A DNA stretch of 64,000 bases. It comes from Marinoscillum furvescens DSM 4134. Lineage in GTDB: Bacteria > Bacteroidota > Bacteroidia > Cytophagales > Cyclobacteriaceae. The DNA is taken from NCBI RefSeq assembly GCF_003386095.1, contig NZ_QREG01000019.1, positions 62,001 through 126,000 of the forward strand, in the 5' to 3' direction. Below the pieces are notes generated by a model. The model was not told the DNA's origin. It saw only the letters and a list, made by a program, of their open reading frames with translations, and ran no database searches. Positions 13,606 through 56,452 of this stretch are shown here, piece after piece; positions within the stretch are counted from its first letter, which is position 1, and each line of letters starts with the position of its first letter. A program made the translations under genes and the position numbers.

Positions 13606-13650
13606 TTAAGAGATTATTTAGTGCAAATTAAGCCTTCAGGCTTAAGCTTA
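13606..13650 (+). promoter_or_regulatory. Phased TTAA box array and -7 element before the 13712 lipoprotein gene
   Basis: Boxes begin at 13606 (TTAAG), 13617 (TTTAG) and 13628 (TTAAG), exactly 11 bp apart. A -7-like element TAAGCTTA begins at 13643, 15 bp after the start of the last box. The geometry is the same as in the mannan locus downstream, so the 13712 gene may belong to the same regulon. A palindrome around 13630-13643 overlaps the element. Confidence 0.55.
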
Positions 13651-13711
13651 AGGTAGAAATTATTTTTGGGCAATGTGCACGAGCATCTGCCTGCTAACTA
13701 ACCTTAACCTT

Positions 13712-14725
13712 ATGCGTACTTTAACCTTTTTCACAGTTTGGATCACTTGCCTGGCCCTGGGTTGCGGTGAAAAAAAGACCGAATCGGAACTCACCTTCGA
13801 CCTAAAGGGCAAGAGTCATCTTTACCTGATCAACCATACCAATGACTCTCTGGATCTAAGAATTCGTGACAATGCCATCTGGCCGGAGAAAAACTACTAC
13901 GATGTAAAAGTGCTGGCACCTAAGGTCACCCAGCTGGAAATCAGGAAAACCCAGGGGAGAAACGATTTTTATCTCTCAGTAGAAGGTGAAACGTACAATC
14001 TCTATGCATACCCGGGTTCACGTGATACAGTGATCATTAGTGGAGCAAAGAGCGGCGATCTTGTTGTTGATTTTGCAGGAGACCTTCAGGTTGTCAATCA
14101 GTTTTTGAAGCAAAAAAGCACTCATTTTGGCGCGTATCATTCAGATCGAGAGGGGCGTAGCAAGTTCATGATCGATGGAAGCAAGGCACTGGAGGATATT
14201 TATGCATACAATGACTCCATCACGGCAGTCCAAAAGACTTTTTTAAACACGCATCAGTCTAGCATCCCCAATTGGTATGTGCAGTTTGAGTTGAAAAGAC
14301 TGGACTACCTCAACACCTGGTACAAAGTGAATGCATTGATTTACCGCACAAAAACCCTGAAACAGGAAGGTGTGAGCTCGGAGCTAATAGCAGCGCCCTA
14401 CAAGGGACTTCTTATTTTGAAAAAAGAGCTATTGGGAAACAGAGATTACATGAGCTTTTTGGATCAATACATCACGCATCAGATTGAATTTGAGGCGGTT
14501 GACGCGCAGCCCTTCAAAACAAGAAAAGAAGAGTTGGCATACAGACTTTCGGTAATCGAAAAGCGCCTGAAGGGAGAGGTCAAGGAGGCTTATCTTACCC
14601 GCGAGCTGAGCCAGTATATTGATAGAGGGATCCTGTATGATTCGGCCTGGCTCGCCAAAGTGAATAACCCCAAATACAGTGATTTTATCGGCGGTGTAAA
14701 GAGCTATTACTTAAAAGAGCACTAA
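13712..14725 (+). CDS. Predicted lipoprotein of unknown function
   Basis: About 337 residues from the ATG at 13712 (MRTLTFFTVW), which places a lipobox LALGC correctly; an upstream in-frame start would put 13 extra residues before it. The mature part has a beta-rich N-terminal half (SHLYLINHTNDSLDLRI) and a helical second half. The N-terminal half recalls the region found ahead of thioredoxin domains in some Bacteroidota lipoproteins, but there is no CxxC motif and no thioredoxin domain. The upstream phased TTAA boxes suggest co-regulation with the mannan locus. No function is assigned. Confidence 0.65.
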   Translation: MRTLTFFTVWITCLALGCGEKKTESELTFDLKGKSHLYLINHTNDSLDLRIRDNAIWPEKNYYDVKVLAPKVTQLEIRKTQGRNDFYLSVEGETYNLYAYPGSRDTVIISGAKSGDLVVDFAGDLQVVNQFLKQKSTHFGAYHSDREGRSKFMIDGSKALEDIYAYNDSITAVQKTFLNTHQSSIPNWYVQFELKRLDYLNTWYKVNALIYRTKTLKQEGVSSELIAAPYKGLLILKKELLGNRDYMSFLDQYITHQIEFEAVDAQPFKTRKEELAYRLSVIEKRLKGEVKEAYLTRELSQYIDRGILYDSAWLAKVNNPKYSDFIGGVKSYYLKEH

Positions 14726-14731
14726 TCAACG

Positions 14732-14784
14732 ATCAGAGGCATGTCAGTTGCAGAATTAAGTCCTGCTCTCGGCATGCCTCTGAT
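14732..14784. terminator. Bidirectional terminator between convergent genes
   Basis: A perfect 12-bp inverted repeat, ATCAGAGGCATG at 14732-14743 and CATGCCTCTGAT at 14773-14784, followed by a T-rich stretch, lies between the stops at 14725 (plus) and 14800 (minus). Confidence 0.8.
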
Positions 14785-14799
14785 TTTATATTTTAAGCT

Positions 14800-15690: not shown

Positions 15691-15788
15691 GATCTCAAAA
15701 GGTTAGTGTTCGAAAAATCCTTTTCAAAACCGCACAGTATACAACAAGCTTGTGTCGGAGGTTTTAAACCTCACTGTACGATTTACAA

Positions 15789-15881
15789 ATCATGTAGATT
15801 AAAATACTGCGTATGGAGTGACCTAAGACAAAGCCTTTAAAGAAGGAAGGAATAATGAGGCTTTGTGCTGAGCAGCTAGTC
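15789..15881 (+). ncRNA. Structured RNA-like element, copy A
   Basis: It shares three exact blocks with copy B: CATGTAGAT (15791), GGAGTGACCTA (15815) and GGAAGGAA (15845), in the same order and nearly the same spacing. Between the blocks a stem ACAAAGCC (15828-15835) / GGCTTTGT (15859-15866) forms. Its sequence differs from the matching stem of copy B while pairing is kept. The outer stem is weak here (TACTGC with GCAG). It matches no riboswitch I can name. Confidence 0.5.
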
Positions 15882-16047
15882 AAATATACAAACTCCTCGG
15901 CAGAAATTAAAAGTTGTAGCTGACACCTTAATCAAACTTAAGGTTTTGGAAGTGCTGCGATCGATTTCCTAACCACTAAATGATAATTTGATTGAATACT
16001 GAGAATATAAGGTGTTCATTTTTAGATTTTTTCAATAAACTCCTCGA

Positions 16048-16105
16048 TTAATTCATTTTTTACTTCTGATTAATCAGGAATTAACTGCTTGCCAGGATAA
16101 TTGAG
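16048..16105 (+). promoter_or_regulatory. Phased TTAA box array and -7 element before the 16308 gene
   Basis: Boxes begin at 16048 (TTAAT), 16059 (TTTA), 16070 (TTAAT) and 16081 (TTAAC), exactly 11 bp apart. A -7-like TAATTGAG begins at 16098, 17 bp after the start of the last box. Transcription from here would include RNA element copy B in the leader. Confidence 0.65.
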
Positions 16106-16106
16106 G

Positions 16107-16196: not shown

Positions 16197-16307
16197 ATTG
16201 AAATGTACTTTTTTAACCACCTAACCAAGTGAGCCATGAAAATATAAAAGCTTCATCCAATCCACCTTGACTAACTGACACTAACTAAAAACCTTAAATG
16301 AGATTGT

Positions 16308-19300
16308 ATGATCAAGCACATACCACTAACCTGTGTGGCGTTGCTACTGGCGATCAGCCTGTATGCCACCACAGACAAATACCGACTAACCCTTCGGGAT
16401 GACCCGGCCACTTCTATAGTTATCGGGTGGAATCAAATAGATGGCACCGGCGTAACGGTGTATTATGGTACCACGGATCAGGGTACAGATTATGCTAGCT
16501 ACTCACATTCCACAGGTGCTACACGTAGTGTTGGTTTTGCAGGAATGGACAACCATTTTGCACGGCTCAGTGGATTGCAGCCAAATACCATTTACTATTT
16601 TGTAATTAAGGACTCGAATAGTACGAGTCCACGGTTTTGGTTTAAAACCGCTCCAAACGTGCCCACTGAAAGGCTTGCCTTCATTGCAGGAGGCGATTCG
16701 CGCAATAACCGGACGCCCAGACAAAATGGGAATCGTTTAGTTAGCAAGCTGAAGCCGCACGCAGTACTTTTTGGTGGGGATATGACCAATGCCTGCACTA
16801 ATACCGAGTGGAAGCAATGGTTTGACGACTGGCAGTTCACCATCAGCGATGATGGAAGGATGTATCCCATCGTTGCTGCAAGAGGAAATCACGAAACAAA
16901 CGATGACTATATCTACCACCTCTTTGATACACCCAGAAACAACAACAGCGTCTATTACGCATTGACTTTTGGAGGTTCGCTCATCAGAGCTTACACGCTG
17001 AACACTGAAATACCAGTAGGGGGTGATCAAGAAAGTTGGCTTCATACTGATCTGCTGGCCCACGACCACATCATCTGGAAAGCAGCGCAATATCATAAGC
17101 CGATTCGCCCGCATGTAGGCGGCAAGCCTGAGAAAAACGATCAGTATGACGCATGGGCTCGAAAGTTTTATGATTACAATGTGAAGCTCGTAGTAGAGTG
17201 TGATGCACATACCGTGAAAACTACCTGGCCAATAATACCATCCACCAATTCGGGTAATGATGAGGGTTTTATCAGAGATGATGCAAATGGCACGGTGTAC
17301 GTCGGTGAAGGCTGCTGGGGAGCACCCAATCGGCCAAATGATGATAATAAAAGCTGGACTCGAAATTCCGGAGATTTCAATCAGTTTAAGTGGATTTTTG
17401 TAGATCAAAGCAAAATAGAAGTACGGACAATCAAGCTGGATAACGTTACCTCTGTGGGCGAAAACCCCAATAATAATCCTTTTGCAATACCTGCAAATTT
17501 GGACACCTGGAAACCCAGCAACGGAGAGGTTGTAACTATTCTCAATAATAATGTGACGCTACCAACGGTAGCTATCACTGCACCTGGAGATGGCGCTTAT
17601 TATCAAGACTTGCAGACGATCACGGTCAGTGCGGATGCCTCAGATGCCGATGGGTCGGTGAGCAGCGTAGCCTTTTATAGCAATGGTGAGTTGATCGCCA
17701 CAGACAATGCCGCACCCTATGCGGTATCATTTACCATTCCTGGAGATGGTAGTTTTCAGCTTACGGCAGTTGCCACAGACAATGATGGCAATACCAAAAC
17801 GTCTGATATGGTCAACATCACTGCGGGAGATTACAATTTCCTGGATGATGCAGAGTCTCTCAGTGGCTGGCAGTCTTCAGGATCCATCGCGCTGAGTCCG
17901 GTTTCCAGACAGGGAGCCAACTCTATTGAGTTTGTGGGACAGGCCACGGATGAGTTTAGAAAAGCATTTACCACGGCCTACAACTCAGGAGCAGACCCAA
18001 CACACGCTCGCTTGGAGTTTTGGTACTATGTATCCGATGTGTCCAAACTTGTGGGTAGCAATCAGGTGGAGCTGGGCAGTGGAGGTGCAGCCGATGTAAA
18101 TGAATACAACTGGAAGCTCAATAACCTGAATAATGGATGGAACTTTATCAGTCTAAAAACGAATGAACCAAGGGGTGTAATCGGTAATCCCGATCTAAAT
18201 GCGATCAACTGGTTTCGGTTATACAATACCAACAAGTCAGGGTCTGTCACCACTCGAATAGATGGACTAAAAATAGTAGACCCATCGGTCAACTACTCTG
18301 TGCGAAACATCGAAGATCTGGATAACGGGTCGTTGTTTCATTTTTCGGTGATGAGTGACAATAAGGGAGAAAGCCCGCTACAAGCCAGTAATTCACAGTC
18401 GCTGACTAGTATGCAGCGCCTGGATGCGTGGATTCAAAGCTCGGAGTTTGTCATAGGCCTTGGAGACCATTTGGTGAGTAAGAATGAGGACGATCCCTTC
18501 CTTAGTTTTATTCAAAATGATCCTTATTGGAAAACAAATTTCTATCCCAATATTGCCGATGGTGAAAACCAGGCTTTTGGTAAAAACCAGGGCGCATGGG
18601 GCACCGGATGGGAGCTGTTTAACTATGTAGACAACTTTTTTGGAAGAAGCAATGTAGACATGCAACCAAATAAGGTGGATTATTACGCGCATTTTTCACA
18701 TAGTGGTTTTAAAATTCACCTGATACAGCTACACTTTCCGGATGAGCCGAAAAACTCCACTCCATTTAGAGAAGAGTCACGTGCCTACATGCAGCAAAAG
18801 CTGGATTCCCTGGCACCGATCAAAACTAATAAGGATATCATCATCGTAGCAGTGCATAGTTATGATGGAGATTTTGTGCGGGATGGAAATCTCAATGCCT
18901 ATCGCAAAAACCTGTTGCTTTCCACAGCAGACATCTGCTTGTCAGCCACGATTCATACTTTCGAGCGCTACCCACAATACAATGTGGACTACCCGAATGG
19001 TGCGGTACATTATAATACAGGTGCGGCATGCCATACCGGCTCTACACATGGGTATATGGAATTTCACGTGCTGGACAACCCACCACGTGTGGTCATCCAA
19101 TACATCAACACAGAAGATAACGCCACGCGACAATTACAAACCGGCTATATCGATGGAATCGGAGATCCTACGCTAGCGATTGTAAAAGAAATCAATGGTC
19201 CGGCTTATGAGGTCGACTGGGCTACATTACCCTTGTCGACTGATGATTGCCCGAATGATCCTGACAAGTCGGCGCCTGGAGATTGTGGCTGTGGTATCCC

Positions 19301-22300
19301 CGAAGGTACCTGTACACCACACACACTGGTGGTAAATAATGGCACGGGTGATGGCAGCTATGCCCACGATGCTACCGTTTCTATCACCGCCGACACACCT
19401 CCGGCCAGTCAGGTTTTTGATCGATGGGTGGTAAACAGTGGCGTGCCTAACATAGCCGATGCTACAGCAAGTAGCACGACGCTCGTGATGGGCACAGAAG
19501 ATGCCTCCGTTACGGCAACTTACAAGGCATCCAATCTGACTAATGGTGCAGAGTTTGTCTCCAGAACGGTACCCAATGAAGTGATCGCCGGTGATACGGT
19601 CTCGGTGACAGTAGTCATGAAAAATACCGGCTTAACCACCTGGACAAATGCAGAAGGCTATAAACTCGGAAGCCAAAACCAACAGGATAATACCGATTGG
19701 GGATTTAACCGAGTACAGTTGGAGACTAATGATGAAATAGCTCCAGGTCAAAATAAGGCATTCACCTTTGAAATTTATGTGCCGGAAACACCTGGTACAT
19801 ACAATTTTCAATGGAAAATGGTGCAGGAAAATGTGGAGTGGTTTGGAGACCCATCATTGAATCTAGAGGTACAGGTAGCTGCTGCTCCTGGGGATAATCA
19901 GTTGACCAGTAAACTTATGATGGGCTATCAGGGCTGGTTTTTGGCTAAACCCGATAACTCCGTACCCAATGAGTGGAGACACTGGTTTACAAATGGTGCA
20001 GGCAACGATACTCCCGATGCGGCATACTATGGAGCTGATATGTGGCCGGATATGAGTGAGTACAGCATGGCATACAATACCAATATGACCTATGCGGATG
20101 GTTCCAATGCGCAGCTGTTTAGTTCCTATGATAGCAGCACTACCAATAAGCATTTTGAATGGATGCGCGACTACAATATTCATGGGGTATACCTACAGCG
20201 ATTTATTGCGGAGGCTCAGGATAGTCGTTTTTTCGATACTCGAAATCAAGTGCTCAGCAATGTGATCAATGCTGCGGCCATGTATGATCGAAAGTTCGCG
20301 CTCATGTATGATTTGTCCGACTGGCCTACCACAGCTGATCTATCTGATCAGATAAAGGCAGACTGGGAATACCTGGAATTGAATTACAACGTGCCCAATA
20401 ATCCAGGCTATGCGCGGCAAGAGGGTAAGCCTGTGATCGCTATTTGGGGCATAGGCTTTCAGGATAGGGGGCTAGCATTAAGTGAAATTCAGGATATCAT
20501 CACCTATTTCAAGAATAGAAATGGAGGCATGTACCTGGTGGGGGGAGTACCCAGTCAATGGGCTACACTGACCGGTGACTCTGAAAGTGGCTCTGAATGG
20601 AGAGACGTGTATCGATCTTTGGATATGCTGTCACCCTGGACAGTAGGTAGGTACGCAACCGACCCCAACAATAACTGGCAGACAGAAGTAGACAACTGGC
20701 TCAATACTAAAATTAAGCCAGATTTGGATACCTGTTTGGCGCAGGGTATGGACTATATGCCGGTGATATGGCCAGGCTTTTCCTCTCATAACATTTACAA
20801 TAACAAACCGCTAAATGAGGTGCCTAGAAGAGGAGGTGATTTTTACTGGCGACAAGCCTACAACGTAATCAACGAGGGTATAGACTTTGTCTACGTTGCG
20901 ATGTTTGATGAAGTAGATGAAGGTACGGCGATGTTTAAGACTGCTGAAACGAAGGCAGATGTCCCCGTACAGCTTCAAAATACGCTCATTACCATGGATG
21001 AGGACGGTGAGGCCCTTCCTTCTGACTGGTACCTGCAGCTGGCAGGTCAGACTCAGGATATGCTGGACGGCACCATTCCAATTTCCAGTACGATTCCTAT
21101 CTCGCCTTCAGTGAATGGCAATGGAGCTGTATTTATAAGTCAGGATGTACCGCCTACCTTGGCTACAGGTGCTTCATTTACAGCTACAGTCACCATGAAA
21201 AATACCGGAACCACGACCTTTACTCCTGGAGGCCTTTATAAATTGGGAAGTCAGAATACTCAGGACAATGTAAACTGGGGCACCAATAGAATTGAGCTGG
21301 GTACTGGAATGTCCGTTGCTCCAAATGAGCAGGTGACCTTTACCCTGAGCGGTACGGCTCCTGCCAACCCGGGAGTATACAATTTCCAATGGCGTATGGT
21401 TCAGGATCAGGTAGAATGGTTCGGAGCCTCTTCAGAAAACTTCCTGATCACCGTGGGCAATGTCTCCAATTTTCTAGATGATTGTGATGCAACGACAGGT
21501 TGGGGGTCTTCACAGACATTAAGTCTAAATACTACCACACATCAGCAAGGTTCAGGTAGCCTTTCGTTTACAGGAAGCACCGAGATGGAGTTCCAAAAAG
21601 TATTTTCTCCGGCGCATAATGGCAGCCTGGATGAAAATACGGCCGTATTGAGGTTTTGGTATTATATCTCTGATGCCTCACAGATGACTGGAGTCAACCA
21701 GGTAGAGCTTGGGAGTGGTGGTACGGCTGATTCTATGGAGTACAACTGGAGCTTACCTGCCTTACAAAACGGGTGGAACCTGATCAACCTGCAACTAAGT
21801 GAGGCTTCTAAAATCGGTACGCCAGATATCAATGCCATCAACTGGTTCCGACTTTACAACTTCAAAAGCACAAGTATCACCACAGGACTGGATGCTATTC
21901 AGTTGATCGATCCGCAAGGAGGCGTCAATTATGAGGTAGTTGTCAATTCTGGTTCGGGTGATGGCACTTATGCTGACAGCACGGCTGTGTCCATTTCGGC
22001 AGATGCTCCTCCGTCTGGTAAAGAGTTCGATGCGTGGGTGATCACCGAGGGTACGGCTACCATTGCTGATATCAATGCTGCGAATACTACCCTGACCATC
22101 AATGGCAGCAGTGTCATCGTAGGCGCAACATACAAAGACGTGGATTATGACCTGGTGGTAACCAGCGGCACAGGCGATGGTGCGTATACCTCCGGCACAG
22201 ATGTGACCATAGTAGCAGACCCAGCTCCAGAAGGGCAGGAGTTTGATGCCTGGGTGATCGTTTCGGGTTCGCCTGCTATATTGGATGCCAATGCAATCAG

Positions 22301-23885
22301 TACCAACCTGGTGATGGGTGCTCAAAATGCTGAGGTGCAGGCTACTTATCGAAATATCAACTACACGCTCACGGTAGGAAGTGGCACAGGTGATGGATCT
22401 TACACATTCAATGAAAATGCGACCATCACAGCGGATGCCGCCCCCTCAGGGCAAGAGTTTGATAGATGGGTGATTGCCTCTGGTAGTGCAACTCTGGCTG
22501 ATGAACTGGCCAGCAGTACTACGCTGACTATGGGGGCAAACGATGTGACCGTAAATGCGACCTACGTCACGACCACCTATGCCCTGGTAGTCAACAGTGG
22601 CAATGGCAGTGGCAGCTATGCTCCGGGTGCTCAGGTAAACATTAGTGCGTATGCTGCACCTGCAGGTCAGGTGTTTGCCGGCTGGGTGATTGATGCGGGG
22701 ACCCCCACGATAGCGGATGCCAGTGCTGCATCCACTACGCTCACCATGTCCACAGGTACGGCTACCATTTCTGCCACCTATCAGGCCATCAGCAATGGAG
22801 CCACCTATGTTTCCCAAAGTGGAGTGCCCAGCACCCTAAATGTTGGCCAAACGGCTACTGTAAGTGTGACGATGCAAAACTCAGGGACCTCTACCTGGAC
22901 TCGTGATGCCTTATATAAGCTGGGAAGTCAAAACAATCAGGATAACACCGACTGGGGCTTCAATCGTGTCTGGCTAGACGTGAGTGATCAGATTGCTCCG
23001 AATCAAAACAAGGTGTTCACCTTTGATATCACCGCTCCGGCAACAGCAGGTCAGTATAATTTTCAGTGGAAAATGGTGCAGGATCATGTGGAGTGGTTTG
23101 GTGGACAATCGGCCAATGTGAGCATTACGGTAGTAGATCCCAATCAGTTCCTCGATGATTGCGATGCTTTGACAGGCTGGAGTACGTCTAGTTCGAACAA
23201 CCTCATTTTGAGTGGTACGGTGCAGCAAGGCACCAATAGTGTGAAAATCGTTGGCAGTGGAACGGACGAGTTTAAGAAAGTCTTTTCGCCTGCCTACAAT
23301 TCAGGGCTCACAGCCACCAATGCACGACTTGAGTTTTGGTATTATGTATCCAGCCCTGGGCTGATGAGCACATCATCTAATCAGGTGGAGCTGGGCAGCG
23401 GCGGTGGACCGGATGTAAACGAATACAACTGGACCATTTCCAGCTTCAGTTCTGGGTGGAACTTTATCAGCCTGGATATCAGCAACGCCGGTATCACTGG
23501 TGGCACACCTAATCTCAATGCAATCAACTGGTTTAGAATTTATAATTCGAAATCTGGCTCGGTTACCAATCGCATTGACGCGATCAAGCTGGTAAATAAT
23601 GGAAGTTCCCGAACGGCAGAGATTGACGTAGATCAGTCTGTTGACATTAGTATCTATCCAGTGCCGGCCACAGATTTTGTCACGGTGGATGCTGGGTCGT
23701 TGGTTGCAGAAAAAGTAACAGCGAAGGTCTATAACCTCGCAGGAATAGAAGTGAGCTCGATGCAGTTGGAAAAAGCTAGTGGCAATACCTGGAGCATACC
23801 AGTTTCAGGCCTGGAGTCAGGGCTTTATGTTTTGCATCTCTCACTGGATGAACATCGCATCGCGAAGCGAATCATCATAAGATAG
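16308..23885 (+). CDS. Giant secreted protein: two metallophosphoesterase domains, GH71/GH99-like domain, three CBM-like modules, T9SS
   Basis: 2525 residues. Order: signal peptide (1-20); purple-acid-phosphatase-like domain (about 25-375; GGDSRN, FGGDMTN, ARGNHE, QYHKP, CDAH); Ig-like domain (417-510); CBM-like module starting LDDAESLSGW (510-657); second phosphoesterase-like domain (675-935; MSDNKG, GLGDH, VHSYDGD, ATIHTF) in which the GNHE motif reads DGENQ; Ca-binding-type linker (978-1000); repeat; NBR1-type Ig domain (1075-1190); GH71/GH99-like domain (1197-1600) with Glu1535 and Glu1538 in MFDEVDEGTA, matching the paired catalytic Glu of GH99; NBR1-type Ig; second CBM-like module; four repeats of about 72 residues (1875-2160); NBR1-type Ig; third CBM-like module; T9SS sorting domain. 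It probably dephosphorylates and cuts a phosphorylated mannan at the cell surface. Confidence 0.85.
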   Translation: MIKHIPLTCVALLLAISLYATTDKYRLTLRDDPATSIVIGWNQIDGTGVTVYYGTTDQGTDYASYSHSTGATRSVGFAGMDNHFARLSGLQPNTIYYFVIKDSNSTSPRFWFKTAPNVPTERLAFIAGGDSRNNRTPRQNGNRLVSKLKPHAVLFGGDMTNACTNTEWKQWFDDWQFTISDDGRMYPIVAARGNHETNDDYIYHLFDTPRNNNSVYYALTFGGSLIRAYTLNTEIPVGGDQESWLHTDLLAHDHIIWKAAQYHKPIRPHVGGKPEKNDQYDAWARKFYDYNVKLVVECDAHTVKTTWPIIPSTNSGNDEGFIRDDANGTVYVGEGCWGAPNRPNDDNKSWTRNSGDFNQFKWIFVDQSKIEVRTIKLDNVTSVGENPNNNPFAIPANLDTWKPSNGEVVTILNNNVTLPTVAITAPGDGAYYQDLQTITVSADASDADGSVSSVAFYSNGELIATDNAAPYAVSFTIPGDGSFQLTAVATDNDGNTKTSDMVNITAGDYNFLDDAESLSGWQSSGSIALSPVSRQGANSIEFVGQATDEFRKAFTTAYNSGADPTHARLEFWYYVSDVSKLVGSNQVELGSGGAADVNEYNWKLNNLNNGWNFISLKTNEPRGVIGNPDLNAINWFRLYNTNKSGSVTTRIDGLKIVDPSVNYSVRNIEDLDNGSLFHFSVMSDNKGESPLQASNSQSLTSMQRLDAWIQSSEFVIGLGDHLVSKNEDDPFLSFIQNDPYWKTNFYPNIADGENQAFGKNQGAWGTGWELFNYVDNFFGRSNVDMQPNKVDYYAHFSHSGFKIHLIQLHFPDEPKNSTPFREESRAYMQQKLDSLAPIKTNKDIIIVAVHSYDGDFVRDGNLNAYRKNLLLSTADICLSATIHTFERYPQYNVDYPNGAVHYNTGAACHTGSTHGYMEFHVLDNPPRVVIQYINTEDNATRQLQTGYIDGIGDPTLAIVKEINGPAYEVDWATLPLSTDDCPNDPDKSAPGDCGCGIPEGTCTPHTLVVNNGTGDGSYAHDATVSITADTPPASQVFDRWVVNSGVPNIADATASSTTLVMGTEDASVTATYKASNLTNGAEFVSRTVPNEVIAGDTVSVTVVMKNTGLTTWTNAEGYKLGSQNQQDNTDWGFNRVQLETNDEIAPGQNKAFTFEIYVPETPGTYNFQWKMVQENVEWFGDPSLNLEVQVAAAPGDNQLTSKLMMGYQGWFLAKPDNSVPNEWRHWFTNGAGNDTPDAAYYGADMWPDMSEYSMAYNTNMTYADGSNAQLFSSYDSSTTNKHFEWMRDYNIHGVYLQRFIAEAQDSRFFDTRNQVLSNVINAAAMYDRKFALMYDLSDWPTTADLSDQIKADWEYLELNYNVPNNPGYARQEGKPVIAIWGIGFQDRGLALSEIQDIITYFKNRNGGMYLVGGVPSQWATLTGDSESGSEWRDVYRSLDMLSPWTVGRYATDPNNNWQTEVDNWLNTKIKPDLDTCLAQGMDYMPVIWPGFSSHNIYNNKPLNEVPRRGGDFYWRQAYNVINEGIDFVYVAMFDEVDEGTAMFKTAETKADVPVQLQNTLITMDEDGEALPSDWYLQLAGQTQDMLDGTIPISSTIPISPSVNGNGAVFISQDVPPTLATGASFTATVTMKNTGTTTFTPGGLYKLGSQNTQDNVNWGTNRIELGTGMSVAPNEQVTFTLSGTAPANPGVYNFQWRMVQDQVEWFGASSENFLITVGNVSNFLDDCDATTGWGSSQTLSLNTTTHQQGSGSLSFTGSTEMEFQKVFSPAHNGSLDENTAVLRFWYYISDASQMTGVNQVELGSGGTADSMEYNWSLPALQNGWNLINLQLSEASKIGTPDINAINWFRLYNFKSTSITTGLDAIQLIDPQGGVNYEVVVNSGSGDGTYADSTAVSISADAPPSGKEFDAWVITEGTATIADINAANTTLTINGSSVIVGATYKDVDYDLVVTSGTGDGAYTSGTDVTIVADPAPEGQEFDAWVIVSGSPAILDANAISTNLVMGAQNAEVQATYRNINYTLTVGSGTGDGSYTFNENATITADAAPSGQEFDRWVIASGSATLADELASSTTLTMGANDVTVNATYVTTTYALVVNSGNGSGSYAPGAQVNISAYAAPAGQVFAGWVIDAGTPTIADASAASTTLTMSTGTATISATYQAISNGATYVSQSGVPSTLNVGQTATVSVTMQNSGTSTWTRDALYKLGSQNNQDNTDWGFNRVWLDVSDQIAPNQNKVFTFDITAPATAGQYNFQWKMVQDHVEWFGGQSANVSITVVDPNQFLDDCDALTGWSTSSSNNLILSGTVQQGTNSVKIVGSGTDEFKKVFSPAYNSGLTATNARLEFWYYVSSPGLMSTSSNQVELGSGGGPDVNEYNWTISSFSSGWNFISLDISNAGITGGTPNLNAINWFRIYNSKSGSVTNRIDAIKLVNNGSSRTAEIDVDQSVDISIYPVPATDFVTVDAGSLVAEKVTAKVYNLAGIEVSSMQLEKASGNTWSIPVSGLESGLYVLHLSLDEHRIAKRIIIR

Positions 23886-24878: not shown

Positions 24879-24923
24879 TTAATTGGATATTAATGAGTCA
24901 TTAAGCCAATCGGGTTAGAATTG
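24879..24923 (+). promoter_or_regulatory. Phased TTAA box array and -7 element before the sulfatase gene
   Basis: Boxes begin at 24879 (TTAAT), 24890 (TTAAT) and 24901 (TTAAG), exactly 11 bp apart. A -7-like TAGAATTG begins at 24916, 15 bp after the start of the last box. Confidence 0.7.
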
Positions 24924-24991
24924 AAGCTTTGGGATCAGCAATCAATGGTGTTGCAGTCTCATGATTTTATTTTTACCTAAACTCATTATTG

Positions 24992-26470: not shown

Positions 26471-26515
26471 TTAAGTGGATTTTAAGTAAATCTTTAGTTG
26501 TTCCAAATACATTTG
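26471..26515 (+). promoter_or_regulatory. Phased TTAA box array with a perfect TAnnTTTG -7 element before the 26584 gene
   Basis: Boxes begin at 26471 (TTAAG), 26482 (TTAAG) and 26493 (TTTAG), 11 bp apart. TACATTTG at 26508 is a perfect Bacteroidota -7 element, 15 bp after the start of the last box. Less regular boxes occur upstream at 26427, 26438 (TTAT) and 26459. Confidence 0.75.
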
Positions 26516-29183: not shown

Positions 29184-29252
29184 TTAACAAACGTTTTATT
29201 CAAAATTAATTGAGGATTTACCCGGCATTAATCGCCGCATCTTTTATTAGTC
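29184..29252 (+). promoter_or_regulatory. Phased TTAA box array before the 29319 gene
   Basis: Five boxes begin at 29184 (TTAAC), 29195 (TTTA), 29206 (TTAAT), 29217 (TTTA) and 29228 (TTAAT), exactly 11 bp apart. A TATTAGTC that could be the -7 element begins at 29245, 17 bp after the start of the last box. Confidence 0.65.
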
Positions 29253-35701: not shown

Positions 35702-35758
35702 TTAATTAATGAGTTAATTCCATTTTAAGCTGTAATTAATCCCACCGTCCTAAGTTCG
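35702..35758 (+). promoter_or_regulatory. Phased TTAA box array and -7 element before susC
   Basis: Boxes begin at 35714 (TTAAT), 35725 (TTAAG) and 35736 (TTAAT), exactly 11 bp apart, with another at 35702 (12 bp). A -7-like TAAGTTCG begins at 35751, 15 bp after the start of the last box. CCCACCG after the last box resembles CCCGCCC after the array at 56430. Confidence 0.7.
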
Positions 35759-47830: not shown

Positions 47831-47908
47831 TTAAGTCTGATTTAAGCCGATTTTAACAAGCTGTTAAGAGCATTTTAATCGCATTTTAAGTACCGCCCTC
47901 TACTTTAG
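47831..47908 (+). promoter_or_regulatory. Six-copy phased TTAA box array and -7 element before the 47946 gene
   Basis: TTAA begins at 47831, 47842, 47853, 47864, 47875 and 47886, exactly 11 bp apart each time; four of the six read TTAAG. A -7-like TACTTTAG begins at 47901, 15 bp after the start of the last box. This is the longest and cleanest array in the window. Confidence 0.8.
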
Positions 47909-47945: not shown

Positions 47946-49241
47946 ATGAAAAAAGGAATTTTACAATTGGTGGCAGCCGTTGCTGTAAGCGTAGGTGCCT
48001 ATGGCCAAACCACAGTTTGGAATCCTGCGGCAAACCCTGATGGTACGGGCAATTGGAATGAAGCTGCCAACTGGACAGAAGGTATCCCAAATCCAGGATC
48101 TGGTAAGGCTGTATTTAATGTAGAAGATGCTGCACCATGTCTGATCACTGACACTCAGGAGGTATTCCAAATGGTTGCTGGTGACAATGGTATCGCTAGC
48201 GAAATTGTCATAAAGAATGGAGGAACACTCACTACCGGAGATGTATGGAGTGGTATTGGGTACAACAATGTGGCGACCGTAACAGTAGAAACTGGTGGTT
48301 CCTTGACATTTGGTCAGCATATGTGGGTTGGATTTCTGGCTGGTGCTGAGGGCACTGTAAATGTTGCCGGTGGTACGGTAAGCGTAGTAGCTATGACTGG
48401 TCTTGGCTGGGAAGGTGGAATCGGTAAAGTTTACGTTTCTGACGGACTGCTGGATCTAGCCAATATCAATGCCACAGATATGAAGTCAATCGGAGAAGGG
48501 TCACTTATTGACGTATCTGGTGGTGGACTGATTACCATCAATGGCAATAGACTAGCACACACAGGTGAAGACAATGTGGACTATGAAGATCAGCTGAAGC
48601 CTTTCATTGAGGCTGGAAGACTCACCGCTCTTGGTGGAAACGGTGACGTGATCTACTGGTACAACGCAGAAGCTGATGAGACCTACATCGTAGCACCTAC
48701 GCTGGTAGAGTCTACTTTCCCTGCGGACGCGTCTACGGAAGTATCCAGAGATGCAGACATACAAATTGTCTTTACCAAAGCAATGGATCAGGCAAGCGTA
48801 TCGGACAATATCACGATTACACCGGCTATCGACAACCAGGCGATGGGATGGTCTACAAGTGGCGATACACTGACGATTTCTGGTGACCTAAAAGATGGGG
48901 TGACGTACGCTATCTCTGTGAGCAAGTCGGCCAAGGATATTTACGGATACGGTTTGGCGTTTGACGAATCACTTTCTTTTACTATCGAAGGAGACGTGCT
49001 GCTCAATTCTGATCAGAACATTCAGGAGCAATTGGTAGCATACCCGAACCCAACAGTAGACTTCTTCTCATTCAACAAAGGTTTGGCCTCAGAAGTAAAG
49101 GTTTTTGATGCTACAGGTCGTCTAATGCTGCAAGAGTACAACGTGTCTAAAGTAAACGTTCAAAATCTTCAGTCAGGTACTTACCTGGTAAAAGCGATTG
49201 TGAATGGTGATGCATTCACTGGCCGTATTCTGGTCAAATAA
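47946..49241 (+). CDS. Secreted protein with the shared beta-solenoid-like module, Ig-like domain and T9SS domain
   Basis: 431 residues. Signal peptide (1-20, ending AYGQ). The module at about 22-230 (WNPAANPDGTGNWNEAANWT, GGTLTTGDVWSGIGYNN, FGQHMWVGFLAGAEGTVNV) is clearly paralogous to the start of the 26584 protein. A Big_5-like Ig domain follows (about 255-350, STFPADASTEVSRDADIQIV), then a T9SS sorting domain (AYPNPTVDFFSF to the end). It has the longest box array in the window, so it is probably strongly regulated and may be abundant at the surface. Its function is unknown; a glycan-binding or lyase-like beta-helix is possible. Confidence 0.7.
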   Translation: MKKGILQLVAAVAVSVGAYGQTTVWNPAANPDGTGNWNEAANWTEGIPNPGSGKAVFNVEDAAPCLITDTQEVFQMVAGDNGIASEIVIKNGGTLTTGDVWSGIGYNNVATVTVETGGSLTFGQHMWVGFLAGAEGTVNVAGGTVSVVAMTGLGWEGGIGKVYVSDGLLDLANINATDMKSIGEGSLIDVSGGGLITINGNRLAHTGEDNVDYEDQLKPFIEAGRLTALGGNGDVIYWYNAEADETYIVAPTLVESTFPADASTEVSRDADIQIVFTKAMDQASVSDNITITPAIDNQAMGWSTSGDTLTISGDLKDGVTYAISVSKSAKDIYGYGLAFDESLSFTIEGDVLLNSDQNIQEQLVAYPNPTVDFFSFNKGLASEVKVFDATGRLMLQEYNVSKVNVQNLQSGTYLVKAIVNGDAFTGRILVK

Positions 49242-50183: not shown

Positions 50184-50239
50184 TTAATTAAGAATTCACT
50201 TGCTATTAAGTTGATATTAAGTCATTGATTTTAAGATTA
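50184..50239 (+). promoter_or_regulatory. Phased TTAA box array and -7 element before the 50527 gene
   Basis: Boxes begin at 50184 (TTAAT), 50195 (TTCA, imperfect), 50206 (TTAAG) and 50217 (TTAAG), 11 bp apart. A -7-like TAAGATTA begins at 50232, 15 bp after the start of the last box, and resembles the TAAGCTTA at 13643. Confidence 0.65.
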
Positions 50240-50526: not shown

Positions 50527-53340
50527 ATGATGAAAAAATTATATCTAACCCTAATAGCGGTTTTGTGCGTGTTCGGATTGCACGCCCAAAATGAGCTCAC
50601 GAACAAAGTCATGATGGGGTATCAAGGATGGTTTCTGGCCCAATCGGATAGCTCTACGCCCAATGAATGGCGTCATTGGTTCAACAGTGCAGGGCGAACA
50701 GACCCTTCGGCTGCCAATATTGGCGTGGACATGTGGCCAGATATGTCGGAGTACACAGTTACACATAATACCAACATGACGTATTCGGATGGTTCCAATG
50801 CGGCATTGTTTTCCTCGCATGACTTGAGTACTACACGCAAGCACTTTGAATGGATGAGTGATTATAATGTGCATGGGGTCTATTTGCAACGCTTTTTAGG
50901 TGAAGTCCAGGACAATCGATTCTTCCAGGTCCGAAACGATGTATTGGAAAATGTAATCGCAGCGTCTACAGAATATGGTCGTAAGTTTTCAATCATGTAT
51001 GATATATCTGGAGTAGCGGATGATGGCACCATGCTCAGCAAAATCACGGATGACTGGGAATATTTAATTGATACATTTGACATACTCAATGCTCCTGAAT
51101 ATGTACATCAGGATGGCAAACCCGTCATTGCCATTTGGGGGATTGGTTTTAAAAATCGCGGCCTTACCACAGCCACCATGCAGTCGATCATCGATTATTT
51201 TAGAAATACACACGGCATGTATGTGGTAGGAGGCGTACCTAGTGGCTGGAGGACACTTTCAAACGATTCAGAAACAGGCAGTGCCTGGACCAGCGTTTAT
51301 CAATCACTAGACATGATTTCTCCGTGGACTGTAGGGCGATATGGATTCAGTGGTGTGGACAGCTGGAAGACGAGCAAAATTGTGCCCGACCTGAGTGATT
51401 GCAACTCCCGAGGGAAGGATTATATGCCAGTGATCTGGCCGGGGTTTTCCTGGCTCAACCTTCATGGGGGTGCATTCAATCAGCACCCAAGGTATGGAGG
51501 CGATTTTTACTGGAAGCAGGCCTACAATGCAATAGATGCTGGTTCGGACTTTATCTATGTGGCCATGTTTGATGAGGTGGATGAAGGTACGGCTATGTTT
51601 AAAATTGCCGAAACAGAAGCTGACTTGCCCACTCAACTTACTTCCACACTGGTGACACTGGATGAGGATGGAGTGAGCTTGCCCAGCGATTGGTATTTGC
51701 AGTTGGCAGATGAAACACAAAAAATGCTGGACGGTACTACAGGGATAAGTAGTACGATTCCTATTACTCCATCCACTGCCAATGGTAATGGGGCATCCTT
51801 CGTTTCACAAAGTGTTCCTACCACGTTAACAGAAGGGGCGTCATTTACAGCCACCATTACCATGAAAAATACAGGGAGCACCACCTGGACAAAATCAAAC
51901 CTATACAAGTTGGGAAGTCAAAACCCTCAGGATAACACCACTTGGGGTAGTACCCGTATAGAGTTGCAACCCAGTGAAAGTGTAGCGCCCGGCGCTCAGG
52001 TAACTTTCACGCTAAATGGTACCGCTCCCGCCAGTGCAGGAACCTATAATTTTCAGTGGAAAATGGTACAGGACAATGTGGAGTGGTTCGGTGCAACCAC
52101 TGATAATTTGGTGATTACAGTTGGGAATATCGACTATCTGGATGATTGTGAAGCCTTAACGGGCTGGGGCTCTTCCCAGTCGCTATCGCTGAGCACTGAC
52201 AGTCAGCAAGGTACAAATAGTCTTCAGTTTACCGGCTCCACAGAAATGGAATTCCAAAAAGCTTTTAGCCCGGCATACAATGGAAATGTCAGTCAGTCAG
52301 ATGCTATTTTAAGGTTTTGGTACTATGTCTCAGATGCTTCCAAATTTACCGGTGTAAATCAGGTAGAGTTAGGCAGTGGCGGTCAGGCTGATACGGATGA
52401 GTTCAATTGGGCTTTGCCGACTTTAGTAAATGGCTGGAATTTGATAGATCTAAATATCAGTGCTGCAAACCAGATAGGCACGCCGGACATCAATGCAATT
52501 GACTGGTTCCGTCTCTATAATTTCAAGTCAGCTTCTGTAACTACCCGTTTAGATGCTATTCAACTAATCGACCCAAATCAATCAAACAACATGCTCGATG
52601 ATTGTGATGCCCTGACCGATTGGGGAACAGCAGGGTCAAATAGCTTATCATTAGATGGTACCACCCTAAAGCAGGGAAGTGCTAGTATTCAAATGAGCGG
52701 ATCTGGCACAAATGAATTTCAGAAAGCATTTGCTACGGCTTACAATTCTGGCCTTACAGCATCCAATGCGCGATTAGAGTTCTGGTATTATGTGTCTGAC
52801 CCATCAAATATGAGCACATCCAATAACCAGGTAGAGATCGGTAGTGGAGGGGTGGCTGATGTAAATGAGTACCACTGGAAGCTTTCAAGCTTTACTACAG
52901 GATGGAATTTCATCAGCCTGGATGTGAGTGCTGCAAGTACGACAGGTGGTACCCCAGACCTGAACGCGATTAATTGGTTCAGGATATATAATGCCAAATC
53001 CGGATCGGTCACCAATAGAATTGATGAGATCAAACTAGTGAATAATGGAGGGGCACGTGCTACGAATATCCATGAAGGAGGACAATTGAATGATCCAAAA
53101 GTCACCGTTTATCCTAATCCTGCTAGTGAGTTCATCACCATCGATTTGGGAATACCTCAGGAGCAGCAGGTGCACGCGTCAGTGTATAATCTCGCAGGGG
53201 TACGCTTATTAACTCATGATTTTGAACAGACTGACACGTCAAAGTGGAGGCTCCCCATTGAGGGATTAGAGCCCGGGATTCATGTCTTGGAAATCAAAGT
53301 TGGGGCTCAAAGGATAGTTAGACGATTCTTTATAAAATAA
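50527..53340 (+). CDS. Secreted GH71/GH99-like glycosidase with NBR1-type Ig, two CBM-like modules and T9SS domain
   Basis: 937 residues. Signal peptide (1-20, ending GLHAQ); GH71/GH99-like barrel (about 25-395) starting VMMGYQGWFLAQSDSS and holding MFDEVDEGTAMF at 347-358, giving a Glu350/Glu353 pair; NBR1-type Ig domain (about 415-535); two CBM-like modules (about 537-682 and 690-840, each starting LDDCxALTxW); T9SS sorting domain (VYPNPASEFITIDLG). It is in effect a streamlined version of the C-terminal part of the 2525-residue protein, without phosphoesterase domains. Predicted role: endo-acting cleavage of alpha-mannan outside the cell. It has its own box array. Confidence 0.85.
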   Translation: MMKKLYLTLIAVLCVFGLHAQNELTNKVMMGYQGWFLAQSDSSTPNEWRHWFNSAGRTDPSAANIGVDMWPDMSEYTVTHNTNMTYSDGSNAALFSSHDLSTTRKHFEWMSDYNVHGVYLQRFLGEVQDNRFFQVRNDVLENVIAASTEYGRKFSIMYDISGVADDGTMLSKITDDWEYLIDTFDILNAPEYVHQDGKPVIAIWGIGFKNRGLTTATMQSIIDYFRNTHGMYVVGGVPSGWRTLSNDSETGSAWTSVYQSLDMISPWTVGRYGFSGVDSWKTSKIVPDLSDCNSRGKDYMPVIWPGFSWLNLHGGAFNQHPRYGGDFYWKQAYNAIDAGSDFIYVAMFDEVDEGTAMFKIAETEADLPTQLTSTLVTLDEDGVSLPSDWYLQLADETQKMLDGTTGISSTIPITPSTANGNGASFVSQSVPTTLTEGASFTATITMKNTGSTTWTKSNLYKLGSQNPQDNTTWGSTRIELQPSESVAPGAQVTFTLNGTAPASAGTYNFQWKMVQDNVEWFGATTDNLVITVGNIDYLDDCEALTGWGSSQSLSLSTDSQQGTNSLQFTGSTEMEFQKAFSPAYNGNVSQSDAILRFWYYVSDASKFTGVNQVELGSGGQADTDEFNWALPTLVNGWNLIDLNISAANQIGTPDINAIDWFRLYNFKSASVTTRLDAIQLIDPNQSNNMLDDCDALTDWGTAGSNSLSLDGTTLKQGSASIQMSGSGTNEFQKAFATAYNSGLTASNARLEFWYYVSDPSNMSTSNNQVEIGSGGVADVNEYHWKLSSFTTGWNFISLDVSAASTTGGTPDLNAINWFRIYNAKSGSVTNRIDEIKLVNNGGARATNIHEGGQLNDPKVTVYPNPASEFITIDLGIPQEQQVHASVYNLAGVRLLTHDFEQTDTSKWRLPIEGLEPGIHVLEIKVGAQRIVRRFFIK

Positions 53341-53346
53341 CCAAAT

Positions 53347-53443: not shown

Positions 53444-55960
53444 TTAAATCTCACTACCCTTCACAAATTCATCAAAGGGAACATCGAAAGCTTCCCCATA
53501 GAGTAGCTCATATTCCTTTTCATAGCTTTCATAGCACTTCTTGGCCAGCGCAAATTTCTTCTTGGCATTCAGATATCTTACCTTGATCGACAGGGCATCC
53601 TGATTGATGATGTCGTGCTGGAAGATGCTATCGGCTATGTCCAGCTGAATGTCCGCATCGTGTGGGTTTACACGGCTATTGGTGATGAGATAATCTACGA
53701 TCTTATTGGACAGTTTCGCTTTATAGCCATCCACCCAGTCGAGTTCCAGCGAAGGGAGTATGTTTCCCCTTTTAATGAGCCCGAGAAGAGCCGGAGTGAT
53801 TGGGCGTTGTTCTTCCAGGCATTCGATGAGGTAGCCATAGTCAAAAAAGACCTCCTCGTCAAACGTGATTTGCCATTTGTCACTGGTACTTTTGATGGTG
53901 ATGTCTCCCACACTTTCCAGTAAGTCTCGAAGTTTTTTGATGTTTACATTTCGGTTATTTCGAGCGCTGTTTTGTGACTTGTCACTCCACAAGGCTTCCC
54001 AGATAAAATTACTTGGCACCCCTTTGCCCTTATTGCTGGAGTAGAGCAGGAGCATGGTCAGCAAGGTTCTCAGCGTACTGCTAAACTTCTCACTGATTTC
54101 ATTTCCTTGTTTGTCCAATACCTGAAAACCACCCAGAAAGAGGATGGCGCTTTTCTTATCATCGAAATCTTTCGGTGGCTCCACCACTGGGAGAGGCGCT
54201 GGAGCTGCATGTTCTTCTACAGGATTTGCCGGTGCATCAACGCTGGTCTTTCTGCGCCTTTTACGTATCCAAAACATCACCACTACAAGTAACGCCGACC
54301 CACCCAAGATCGACCATAATATAGAATAGGGGAAGGGCTTGCTTTGTATGATTTCTGACGAGTGTAGGGGTGGAAAATCGAGGGTATAAAAGGAAATGTC
54401 ATATCCCTGCTGGCCACCACTCAAAATTACTGCGGTCAGCTCATTGGTTTTTTTGTTGAGTAGCAAGTCCACATAGGAGTTGGTATCCAAAAAATCCAAA
54501 TCGATCGAATCCTCAAAAACCTCTTTTTCGCCAGTGAATAAGTCATAGGCTTCCAATACAGCCTTGGAGTTAAACTTATCTCTCGGGTAGCGCAGTACAT
54601 AAAAGAGCGAATCGGACTCACCAAATACCAGAGAATTAGAAAATACATTGCCGCCGGCTTCCTCCTCCAGCGTCCAGAGTTCTTTTGCGGATTGTTGCTC
54701 CAGGTCGAGCTCATACAGGTTATGAAAAGATCGGGCACCGTATTCCTGGCTGCCGTTTTTACTACCATACCCACCAAATACGTACGTTTTGCCCTGACTA
54801 TTCTGCCCTAAGGCACTGAGGTAGCGTGGCTCAATATCAGATACAATCGTTTTTTGTCCTGCGCTATCAAAAACCAACAATTCATTGTTGTAAGTATAGT
54901 GCCCATAACCACCAAAAAACACGACTTTACCATCCTGGGTTTTTACTTTGTTGGCGTGCCAGTGGGAGGTAGGTATCACGAAGTTTGAGTTGACCTCATA
55001 AAATTCTTTTCGCTCAAGGCTAAGCTTATTGATCGACATGGAGTCCAGGTCATAGCACCAGATTTCATGCAGGTCTTTCATGTACATGCTCGCCTGATTG
55101 AACGGGAGGGCGACGGATTGGGCAAGAGTATCCGTTTTGGATACATCCGTTGCCATATTGTAGCTGGTGATGTATTCCGGAGAGATTACATAGAAGGTCT
55201 CCTCCTGATCAAATACCACCTGAGGTCTTCCCGTGAAGGAAAGTGTGTTCTTCAGTTGCCATCTTACATGGCGGTCCACCATCCAGTTAGGGTTGGTGGC
55301 CTCTGCCACGTGTGCACCCAACTCATCGAAGCACTTCGAACCGCGGTATTTGACGAGTGGCCAGTGCCGCACGGTATCGCCGTTTACTTCAAAGGTCACC
55401 TCGCGAAGATTCAGCGGTGGTACATCGCTGGTCGTATATTTACCAAGCATGTTTTTGCCAAAGGCTACCAGAGCCTTTTCCAATTCAAAATCGAGCGTCT
55501 TGCGCTTTTCTTTACCATCCAACGACAGGGCGATGTAGTGCTCTCGTGGAGAGATGGTGAGCTCACATAAAATCCACTTATTAGGTTGTAGGCCTATTTC
55601 TTCGAACGAAAAAGATACCGCCGTGGCAGAATCCCCAAGAATCAGGTTTAGGTCATCAAATTTGGAGTTGTAGGGGCTGGAGATCAGGTCGATGTTGTTG
55701 TCATCAGATCCGATAATACGAAAAATATGCCCATACGCTTGAAACTCCCTCCAATAGCTGAAGTAGAAGCTCATTTTAAAGTGACCACCCATCGGTAGTG
55801 CACGGTCAGGAGTGAAGTTGATACCCGTGCGGTTATCCTTTATCTCTTCATATGAGTTGAATTTCAACCCCCCTTTGATGTCGCTACCCTTCAGATCGAT
55901 CACTAACAGCGACCAAAGAATAAAAGTGAAAGAGAAAACTCTCAATATCCGTTTTGTCAT
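53444..55960 (-). CDS. Transmembrane one-component regulator: lectin-like and kelch-like sensor with SARP/OmpR-type winged helix
   Basis: 838 residues. Signal peptide or first membrane segment (about 5-23); LamG/concanavalin-like beta-sandwich (about 30-205, HFKMSFYFSYW); kelch-like beta-propeller (about 235-530) with VVFFGGYGHYTYNNELLVFD at 346-365 and YVFGGYGSKNG near 393; one membrane helix (545-566, ILWSILGGSALLVVVMF) followed by RKRRRK; Pro/Ala-rich linker; winged helix of the SARP/OmpR fold (about 605-702) with LLTMLLLYSSNKG, FIWEALWSDKSQNSARNNRN and VNIKKLRDLLESVG; and a helical C-terminal region (705-838) like the SARP BTAD domain. There is no kinase or receiver domain. It probably senses a glycan in the periplasm and activates the phased-box promoters directly. 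It is divergent from the GH92 unit at 56555 and is the only regulator in the window. Confidence 0.8.
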   Translation of the reverse strand: MTKRILRVFSFTFILWSLLVIDLKGSDIKGGLKFNSYEEIKDNRTGINFTPDRALPMGGHFKMSFYFSYWREFQAYGHIFRIIGSDDNNIDLISSPYNSKFDDLNLILGDSATAVSFSFEEIGLQPNKWILCELTISPREHYIALSLDGKEKRKTLDFELEKALVAFGKNMLGKYTTSDVPPLNLREVTFEVNGDTVRHWPLVKYRGSKCFDELGAHVAEATNPNWMVDRHVRWQLKNTLSFTGRPQVVFDQEETFYVISPEYITSYNMATDVSKTDTLAQSVALPFNQASMYMKDLHEIWCYDLDSMSINKLSLERKEFYEVNSNFVIPTSHWHANKVKTQDGKVVFFGGYGHYTYNNELLVFDSAGQKTIVSDIEPRYLSALGQNSQGKTYVFGGYGSKNGSQEYGARSFHNLYELDLEQQSAKELWTLEEEAGGNVFSNSLVFGESDSLFYVLRYPRDKFNSKAVLEAYDLFTGEKEVFEDSIDLDFLDTNSYVDLLLNKKTNELTAVILSGGQQGYDISFYTLDFPPLHSSEIIQSKPFPYSILWSILGGSALLVVVMFWIRKRRRKTSVDAPANPVEEHAAPAPLPVVEPPKDFDDKKSAILFLGGFQVLDKQGNEISEKFSSTLRTLLTMLLLYSSNKGKGVPSNFIWEALWSDKSQNSARNNRNVNIKKLRDLLESVGDITIKSTSDKWQITFDEEVFFDYGYLIECLEEQRPITPALLGLIKRGNILPSLELDWVDGYKAKLSNKIVDYLITNSRVNPHDADIQLDIADSIFQHDIINQDALSIKVRYLNAKKKFALAKKCYESYEKEYELLYGEAFDVPFDEFVKGSEI

Positions 55961-56163
55961 ACCCTTTGCCTTGGTTGTCTGGATAATAGGTTTTGGTAAA
56001 ATTTAAATAAGGATAGTGAGTCTAAAGCAACTCGTGAGTAAAGCGCATGTTCAAGGGCTGGTCGGTTTTAGAGTCGTTCATGTCTGTTCCAAATGTTTTT
56101 AGTTAGGTACATATAGGTGTGATGCAAAAACCACGCTTCTCGACGGTGTGAATTGCAACTTAA

Positions 56164-56209
56164 TCAAAGTAAAAGAACTCTGGTTAAAAGCAGATTAATT
56201 TCAAATTAA
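56164..56209 (-). promoter_or_regulatory. Phased TTAA box array likely serving the regulator's own promoter
   Basis: TTAA lies at 56184, 56195 and 56206, 11 bp apart. Read on the minus strand, the last box begins at 56187 and a -7-like TACTTTGA begins at 56171, 16 bp further. This puts the regulator under its own boxes about 200 bp upstream of its start. Confidence 0.5.
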
Positions 56210-56407
56210 AGGAATTCCAATTGTATTAGAAGATTACTAATCATCAAGTGAGATTTCGCTCATTATTTTCGATTTCCTGCAAAAATAGATGCTTTGTTGA
56301 AAATTTTTTGATCCATCGGTAAATCAATTGTCAGCAAGAGTGTGGCCATTTGATAGCCAAAATGTCTCCTCAGATTTGTTAGCAAAAATCTCGGGATTTG
56401 ATATCGG

Positions 56408-56452
56408 TTAAGTTGAAGTTAACCACTAATTAATCCCGCCCCGATAAATTGA
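56408..56452 (+). promoter_or_regulatory. Phased TTAA box array and -7 element before the 56555 GH92 unit
   Basis: Boxes begin at 56408 (TTAAG), 56419 (TTAAC) and 56430 (TTAAT), exactly 11 bp apart. A -7-like TAAATTGA begins at 56445, 15 bp after the start of the last box. Confidence 0.7.

Follow-up and report, generated by a model that had tools for sequence, protein, structure and literature searches.

Gene content and phased arrays of the locus

The window, that is, the whole stretch of DNA analysed (64,000 nucleotides; G000:C19:62001-126000, within a 5.96-Mb genome of 62 contigs), contains a locus in which Pfam recognized three GH92 genes, SusC/SusD-type genes, DUF3823, sulfatase and ROK proteins, and several secreted proteins with T9SS tails, together with a weak GH99 match under the Pfam cut-off. 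From GH92 and GH99 we infer mannan as the likely substrate, and the region is called the mannan locus below. It encodes a regulator that combines a Kelch propeller with a SARP-type domain (Kelch-SARP), and ten arrays of TTAA-type boxes at 11-bp steps, each with a -7 element, were found in it:

13606-13650, plus strand: three boxes (13606, 13617, 13628) and a -7 element at 13643-13650, upstream of gene 13673-14725
16048-16103, plus strand: four boxes, the last at 16081, and a -7 element at 16096, upstream of gene 16308-23885
24879-24923, plus strand: three boxes and a -7 element at 24916, upstream of the sulfatase gene 24989-26401
26471-26515, plus strand: three boxes and a perfect -7 element, TACATTTG, at 26508, upstream of gene 26584-28845
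29184-29250, plus strand: five boxes, the last at 29228, and a -7 element at 29243, upstream of gene 29319-34289 (1656 aa, weak LamG match)
35714-35758, plus strand: three boxes and a -7 element at 35751, upstream of the SusC-SusD-DUF3823 genes from 35892, with GH92 at 42020
47831-47908, plus strand: six boxes, the last at 47886, and a -7 element at 47901, upstream of gene 47946-49241
50184-50239, plus strand: four boxes, the second being TTCA and the last at 50217, and a -7 element at 50232, upstream of gene 50527-53340
56165-56209, minus strand: three boxes and a -7 element, TTACTTTG, at 56172-56165, facing the regulator gene 53444-55960 (array 56184 of the initial annotation)
56408-56452, plus strand: three boxes and a -7 element at 56445, upstream of the GH92, weak GH99, unknown and GH92 genes from 56474
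53444-55960, minus strand: Kelch-SARP regulator gene, 838 aa (Pfam, structure models, hydrophobicity)
53444-54166, minus strand: C-terminal SARP-type domain of the regulator, a predicted OmpR-like winged helix plus BTAD-like helices (AlphaFold model, structure search)

TTAA pairs in the window were most frequent at 11 bp (n = 17) and 22 bp (n = 15), with at most six at every other distance from 4 to 60 bp. On the plus strand there were ten runs of at least three TT[AT]A boxes at step 11, and none at steps 8-10 or 12-15. One of these ten, a weak extra run at 61489, is missing from the initial list. The intergenic set comprised 22 segments of at least 30 bp (6,603 bp in total), and 1000 dinucleotide shuffles of it yielded on average 0.005 strict TTAA arrays of at least three boxes at 11 bp (maximum 1) against the five observed, and 0.062 TT[AT]A arrays (maximum 2) against the nine observed; the 22 segments held no array at steps 7-10 or 12-16. 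The initial annotation had placed boxes at exact 11-bp steps in ten places, nine of which pass the TT[AT]A criterion, while 50184 lies outside these nine and counts as an array only if its degenerate second box may be TTCA. The consensus of 37 boxes was TTAA[GTC][TC]N, an A never being seen directly 3' of TTAA.

A genome-wide scan, as the initial annotation had proposed, found the strict pattern TTAA-N7-TTAA-N7-TTAA at eight sites (five merged arrays), all within C19:86879-118433, the mannan locus, and its reversed control at one site. The looser TTWA pattern was concentrated in the same contig, with 25 of 41 rows in a 48-kb stretch of C19 that makes up 0.8% of the genome and 16 rows outside it, compared with 26 for the reversed control pattern. 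A chance origin of the arrays was ruled out by the shuffles, the other step sizes and the genome scan.

The intergenic scan also bore out that the esterase, reductase-cluster and 11031 TonB-receptor genes are not preceded by arrays. The statement that arrays precede every transcription unit of the locus goes slightly too far: examples of array-free gaps are those upstream of 42020 (195 bp) and 23994 (108 bp), which we take, as an assumption, to be operon-internal.

Register of the -7 element

The sequence TAnnTTTG is the Flavobacterium -7 consensus, placed at -12 to -5 in the available text of PMC9723704. When its six specified bases were scored by offset from the start of the last box, the mean over the ten arrays was 4.4/6 at offset 15 and no more than 2.5 at any other offset between 5 and 39. 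The intergenic background had a mean of 1.73, with 6% of positions reaching 4, and in 200,000 random samples of ten intergenic positions a mean of 4.4 was never reached. The element was perfect in one array (26508) and scored 4 or 5 of 6 in the other nine, 56184 being taken on the minus strand; array 16048 matched equally at offsets 15 and 17 (4 each). A 15-bp distance had been reported for seven arrays and 17 bp for two; with 56184 read on the minus strand it applies to all ten, slightly more than had been claimed. That array scored 5/6 on the minus strand (TTACTTTG) and 3/6 on the plus strand, the better element pointing toward the regulator gene 53444-55960, and it was therefore taken as autoregulatory.

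A -7 element with its first base at -12 puts the first base of the last TTAA at -27; T-27 and A-25 are contacted by the downstream protomer in the AfsR structure (PMC10936776). The rule given for Streptomyces SARPs in the part of that source available is of direct repeats 11 or 22 bp apart, with the 3' repeat 8 bp before the -10 element, and a second source, also available in part, gives a wider range for SARP sites, with spacers of 4-15 nt and a 10-bp unit (PMC10972967). A 7-bp box followed by 8 bp gives offset 15, so that the SARP repeat-to-promoter distance was found in all ten window arrays, with imperfect -7 elements. The arrays likewise show the direct repeats at 11 or 22 bp to which a SARP-type domain would bind, and relatives use 12 bp as well.

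The Kelch-SARP regulator

From the N terminus, the regulator consists of a hydrophobic segment, a beta-sandwich, a Kelch propeller, a predicted membrane helix (about 545-572, with a hydrophobic stretch at 542-567) and the SARP-type domain. Among its Kelch matches only Kelch_3 exceeded its Pfam cut-off, and Pfam scans found no histidine kinase, receiver or AraC-type domain. The ectodomain model (pLDDT 86.9, 39 sequences) contained a long helix besides the beta-sandwich and the propeller, and its best PDB matches were Kelch domains. The AlphaFold model of the C-terminal domain (pLDDT 93.2, 47 sequences) matched six PDB chains at E <= 1e-3, all of them the AfsR SARP (8k60, 8hvr, in which it is complexed with RNA polymerase) or EmbR (2fez, 2ff4), with E-values of 2.6e-6 to 2.9e-5 and TM-scores of 0.57-0.64 of the query. 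By prediction, therefore, this domain has the SARP fold, a winged helix followed by BTAD.

Sequence searches gave fainter signals. Neither phmmer nor hmmsearch of the DNA-binding domain against PDB sequences returned a SARP; Pfam matched the window domain to Trans_reg_C only (E 0.003, under the cut-off) and not to BTAD, and at E <= 0.01 it found BTAD in nine and Trans_reg_C in two of 47 members of the domain family. No NCBIfam family exceeded its cut-off for four Kelch-SARPs and a second SARP-type protein. The alignments, from which near copies and truncated genes were excluded, comprised 50 sequences (A3: the window, two others and 47 named), 47 (A4: the window and 46 named, from 59 usable named domains) and 39 (A5: the window and 38 named, from 57). 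The SARP domain is C-terminal, behind the hydrophobic helix, and not N-terminal as in classical SARPs; the regulator is a SARP-type domain in another architecture and not a classical SARP protein.

The second protein with a SARP-type C-terminal domain in this genome lies at G000:C15:7237-9444, minus strand (L047); it is 27% identical and has a different ectodomain, and the 40 kb around it hold no TTAA triple at 11 bp.

Relatives and box spacing by clade

A contig scan with the single regulator protein returned no relatives, while an alignment of four proteins (A1) led to 64 named loci in about a dozen families. The full-length profile matched 17 of 194 genomes of the same order, three of them only with an E-value between 3.5e-4 and 6.6e-4, with one of 4.7e-5, or by a domain-only match. 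In a sample of 395 genomes from the phylum the domain profile had matches in 30. Among the family f1 genomes examined the regulator was confined to the genome of the window, with no close relative carrying it. The 64 named loci frequently contained homologues of SusC (n = 44), SusD (n = 32), DUF3823 (n = 26) and GH92 (n = 25), and nine had a GH99-like gene.

TTAA arrays at 11 or 12 bp were present in the loci of relatives, often upstream of SusC/SusD, and in their non-coding DNA TTAA pairs peaked at 11 bp (n = 91) and 12 bp (n = 93), the other lags from 5 to 44 giving 19 to 72; exact 4-mer triples counted over whole loci, coding DNA included, were too noisy. The 27 loci with a type I recognition helix had 16 step-11 TTAA triples in 11 loci and four step-12 triples in three, and the 32 with a type II helix had 18 step-12 triples in 18 loci and one step-11 triple. 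These labels, assigned by regular expression, served for 59 of the 64 loci, with L107 and L130 mis-typed, L083 and L093 untyped, and L126, L131 and L136 too short; a tree of the domains was then built instead.

The tree of 65 domains split into two fully supported halves, clade I and clade II. Clade I had 17 rows with 11 bp, two with 12 bp and 12 without a TTAA triple, six of the 17 labels being assigned by hand (WINDOW, G506, G542 twice, G472 and G290); clade II had 18 rows with 12 bp, one with both and 15 without, so that 27 of the 65 rows lacked a TTAA triple in the stretches fetched. Judged from these sequences, box spacing follows the clade of the DNA-binding domain, mostly 11 bp in clade I and 12 bp in clade II, with the exception of two Chitinophagaceae loci of clade I that carry 12-bp arrays. 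The 12-bp rows come mostly from Mucilaginibacter and therefore represent few independent events. In all 19 12-bp arrays of named loci the TA of the -7 element at +16 and its TTG at +21 were invariant.

Co-occurrence of array and regulator within one genus

We screened 120 genomes for the exact 12-bp array pattern, all from the genus to which G302 belongs and which we take to be Mucilaginibacter. The pattern was present in 48 of 50 genomes with a top-clade Kelch-SARP versus none of the 70 others (Fisher 1.4e-31, kinship being ignored and the bit-score line of 820 that defines the top clade having been chosen after the gap between 826 and 789 was visible); inside a single genus, shared descent keeps such co-occurrences from being independent. 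When any Kelch-SARP match was counted, 48 of 67 genomes had the array, as opposed to none of the 53 without a match, and the reversed control gave zero.

In 37 of the 48 genomes no more than 2 kb separated the array from the top-clade regulator gene; in the other 11 the two were over 100 kb apart or on different contigs. The unlinked arrays were all upstream of SusC-SusD (n = 11/11; ten fetched, plus that of G690, taken as M. oryzae), no Kelch-SARP was found in the stretches around them, and the TA and TTG of the -7 element at +16 and +21 were invariant in the ten fetched. These loci (L239:9403, L245-L254), where the regulator gene is far away and the operator still stands at the SusC/SusD operon, form a natural cis/trans separation. 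Two extra, overlapping pattern matches (G1147:C1:8074729 and G1115:C25:481820) were perfect 12-mer tandem repeats away from the SusC arrays and are probably unrelated to them.

Arrays in other genomes with 11-bp spacing and at response-regulator loci

Merged strict 11-bp arrays numbered 101 in 12 genomes of the same order, and 30 of them were within 50 kb of a Kelch-SARP (1.6 expected) and 19 within 20 kb (0.67 expected), G290 being left out of this count and genome sizes rounded for all but the window genome, without which the 50-kb figure is 25 of 96. No strict array came closer than 50 kb to the regulator in G460, G522 and G510; in G522 the regulator's contig is just 33.6 kb long. In G542 and G472, whose regulators share up to 63% identity with the Flammeovirga aprica regulator, arrays stand upstream of genes homologous to those of the window (GH92, the 29319 gene and sulfatases), and an array of G506 precedes a SusC 48% identical to that of the window. 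The -7 offset was looser in G542 and G472 (best at 14, mean 3.1; 2.3 at offset 15; 16 oriented arrays) and in the named 11-bp loci (best at 14, mean 2.7; 2.4 at offset 15; 18 arrays), offsets in relatives being blurred because arrays in divergent gaps were scored in both orientations.

Arrays of four TTAA boxes at 11 bp also occurred elsewhere in the family f3 genomes G506, G290, G242 and G351 (L189-L191 and L193-L198). Among the nine loci fetched, OmpR-type response regulator genes were near three and AcrB-type pump genes near two, and a sulfate permease gene followed one array; the -7 element was best at offset 15 (mean 3.93/6, 15 oriented arrays). These arrays are likely a response-regulator operator in those genomes, and the geometry probably belongs to OmpR-like winged helices generally, the Kelch-SARP being the special part here.

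The same f3 loci, with their shared -7 distance, make it conceivable that the window arrays, too, are bound by a two-component response regulator of the OmpR/PhoB type whose gene lies elsewhere, and that the Kelch-SARP is a bystander. We regard this as improbable: none of the 30 window ORFs scanned with Pfam encodes a response regulator, the strict arrays of the genome are confined to the mannan locus, and in the one genus screened the array tracks the Kelch-SARP.

Proposed mechanism

We favour the reading in which the locus encodes a one-component activator that spans the membrane, the Kelch-SARP, with the arrays as its operators, to which it would bind and from which it would activate (probability about 0.85). 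The periplasmic beta-sandwich and Kelch propeller would sense a glycan, and the cytoplasmic SARP-type domain would, judging from fold and geometry, occupy the TTAA[GTC][TC]N boxes as side-by-side protomers, one per helical turn. By analogy with AfsR, the two promoter-proximal boxes may occupy the stretch that sigma region 4 would otherwise recognize, and the bound protomers would place RNA polymerase on the weak -7 element 8 bp downstream; extra boxes could allow cooperative binding, and one array (56184), to judge from its -7 element, may drive the regulator gene itself. A SARP-like mode of action is well supported by geometry and fold. The proposal of the initial annotation, an activator on tandem sites along one helix face beside RNA polymerase, is accordingly strengthened, as this is the published SARP arrangement (PMC10936776, in the text available), here coupled to a predicted SARP fold. 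New relative to that annotation are the predicted SARP fold, the array that faces the regulator gene on the minus strand, the 12-bp spacing in relatives and the recurrence of the geometry at promoters close to OmpR-type response regulators.

The direction of control is read as activation because the register matches SARP activation sites. A Kelch-SARP that binds the arrays and represses, or that switches between repression and activation by ligand, seems marginally less probable still than the bystander explanation: sequence does not reveal direction and a protein beside the -7 element could block polymerase, but the register is that of SARP activation sites, and the -7 element is imperfect in nine of ten arrays, as expected at activator-dependent promoters. 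That the phased TTAA steps act through intrinsic curvature or as UP-like elements, with no specific protein, is very unlikely: A+T-rich steps at helical phase can bend DNA, but the strict arrays are limited to one locus of the genome, the step varies with regulator clade in relatives, and array presence tracks the regulator.

Relation to known systems

The activator proposed here shares with AfsR, PimR and other SARPs, the activators of antibiotic genes in Streptomyces, an OmpR-like winged helix plus BTAD fold (here by prediction), and with Streptomyces SARP operators the tandem boxes at 11 bp, the last of them 8 bp before the -10 or -7 element (PMC10936776, available text). It differs from these proteins in carrying its SARP domain at the C terminus, preceded by a periplasmic Kelch sensor and a membrane helix, and the operators differ in their TTAA-type box, their number of up to six boxes, their TAnnTTTG-type -7 element, their glycan-use targets and the 12-bp spacing of relatives.

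Regulation of Bacteroides polysaccharide loci has been described, in the text available of PMC3878776, through SusR-like, HTCS and ECF systems. According to the same text, SusR of Bacteroides is likewise a membrane regulator with a periplasmic sensor and a cytoplasmic DNA-binding end that controls sus genes, and the HTCS, that of B. thetaiotaomicron mannan loci included, are also membrane sensors over mannan loci with direct-repeat sites; HTCS differ in being AraC-like, in having predicted tandem sites about 21 bp apart, and in their kinase and receiver domains, none of which is found in the regulator described here. OmpR/PhoB response regulators have a winged helix of the Trans_reg_C family in common with it, and same-geometry arrays lie near such genes in f3, yet they carry a receiver domain and neither a Kelch nor a membrane part. 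The TAACTGA repeats of Beggiatoaceae and Bacteroidetes (PMC4679880), in the portion of that report available, are 7-bp repeats, many near start codons, and were dismissed.

The initial annotation knew of no description of this operator in Bacteroidota, and in the part of the open-licence literature covered we likewise found none, either of a Bacteroidota SARP or of a phased TTAA operator. It is reasonably probable that the Kelch-SARPs are a regulator class for PULs in addition to SusR, HTCS and ECF sigma systems, distributed over a dozen named Bacteroidota families, and that through them SARP activation, familiar from Actinobacteria, operates on the different Bacteroidota promoter with an operator code, spacing by clade, usable for regulon prediction. 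If so, a sequence-readable operator would let regulons be predicted across many genomes, the system would reveal how sigma contacts on a Bacteroidota promoter can be substituted by an activator, and a sugar-responsive switch would be at hand for the engineering of harmless Bacteroidota.

Other gene products downstream of arrays

Two genes with an array upstream, 16308-23885 (2525 aa) and 29319-34289 (1656 aa), encode very large products with Ig-like, InlB-repeat or LamG-type domains, and stretches homologous to both are present in the matching loci of G542 and G472. Genes 13673-14725 and 26584-28845, which also have array promoters, encode products without any Pfam match and may represent unnamed families.
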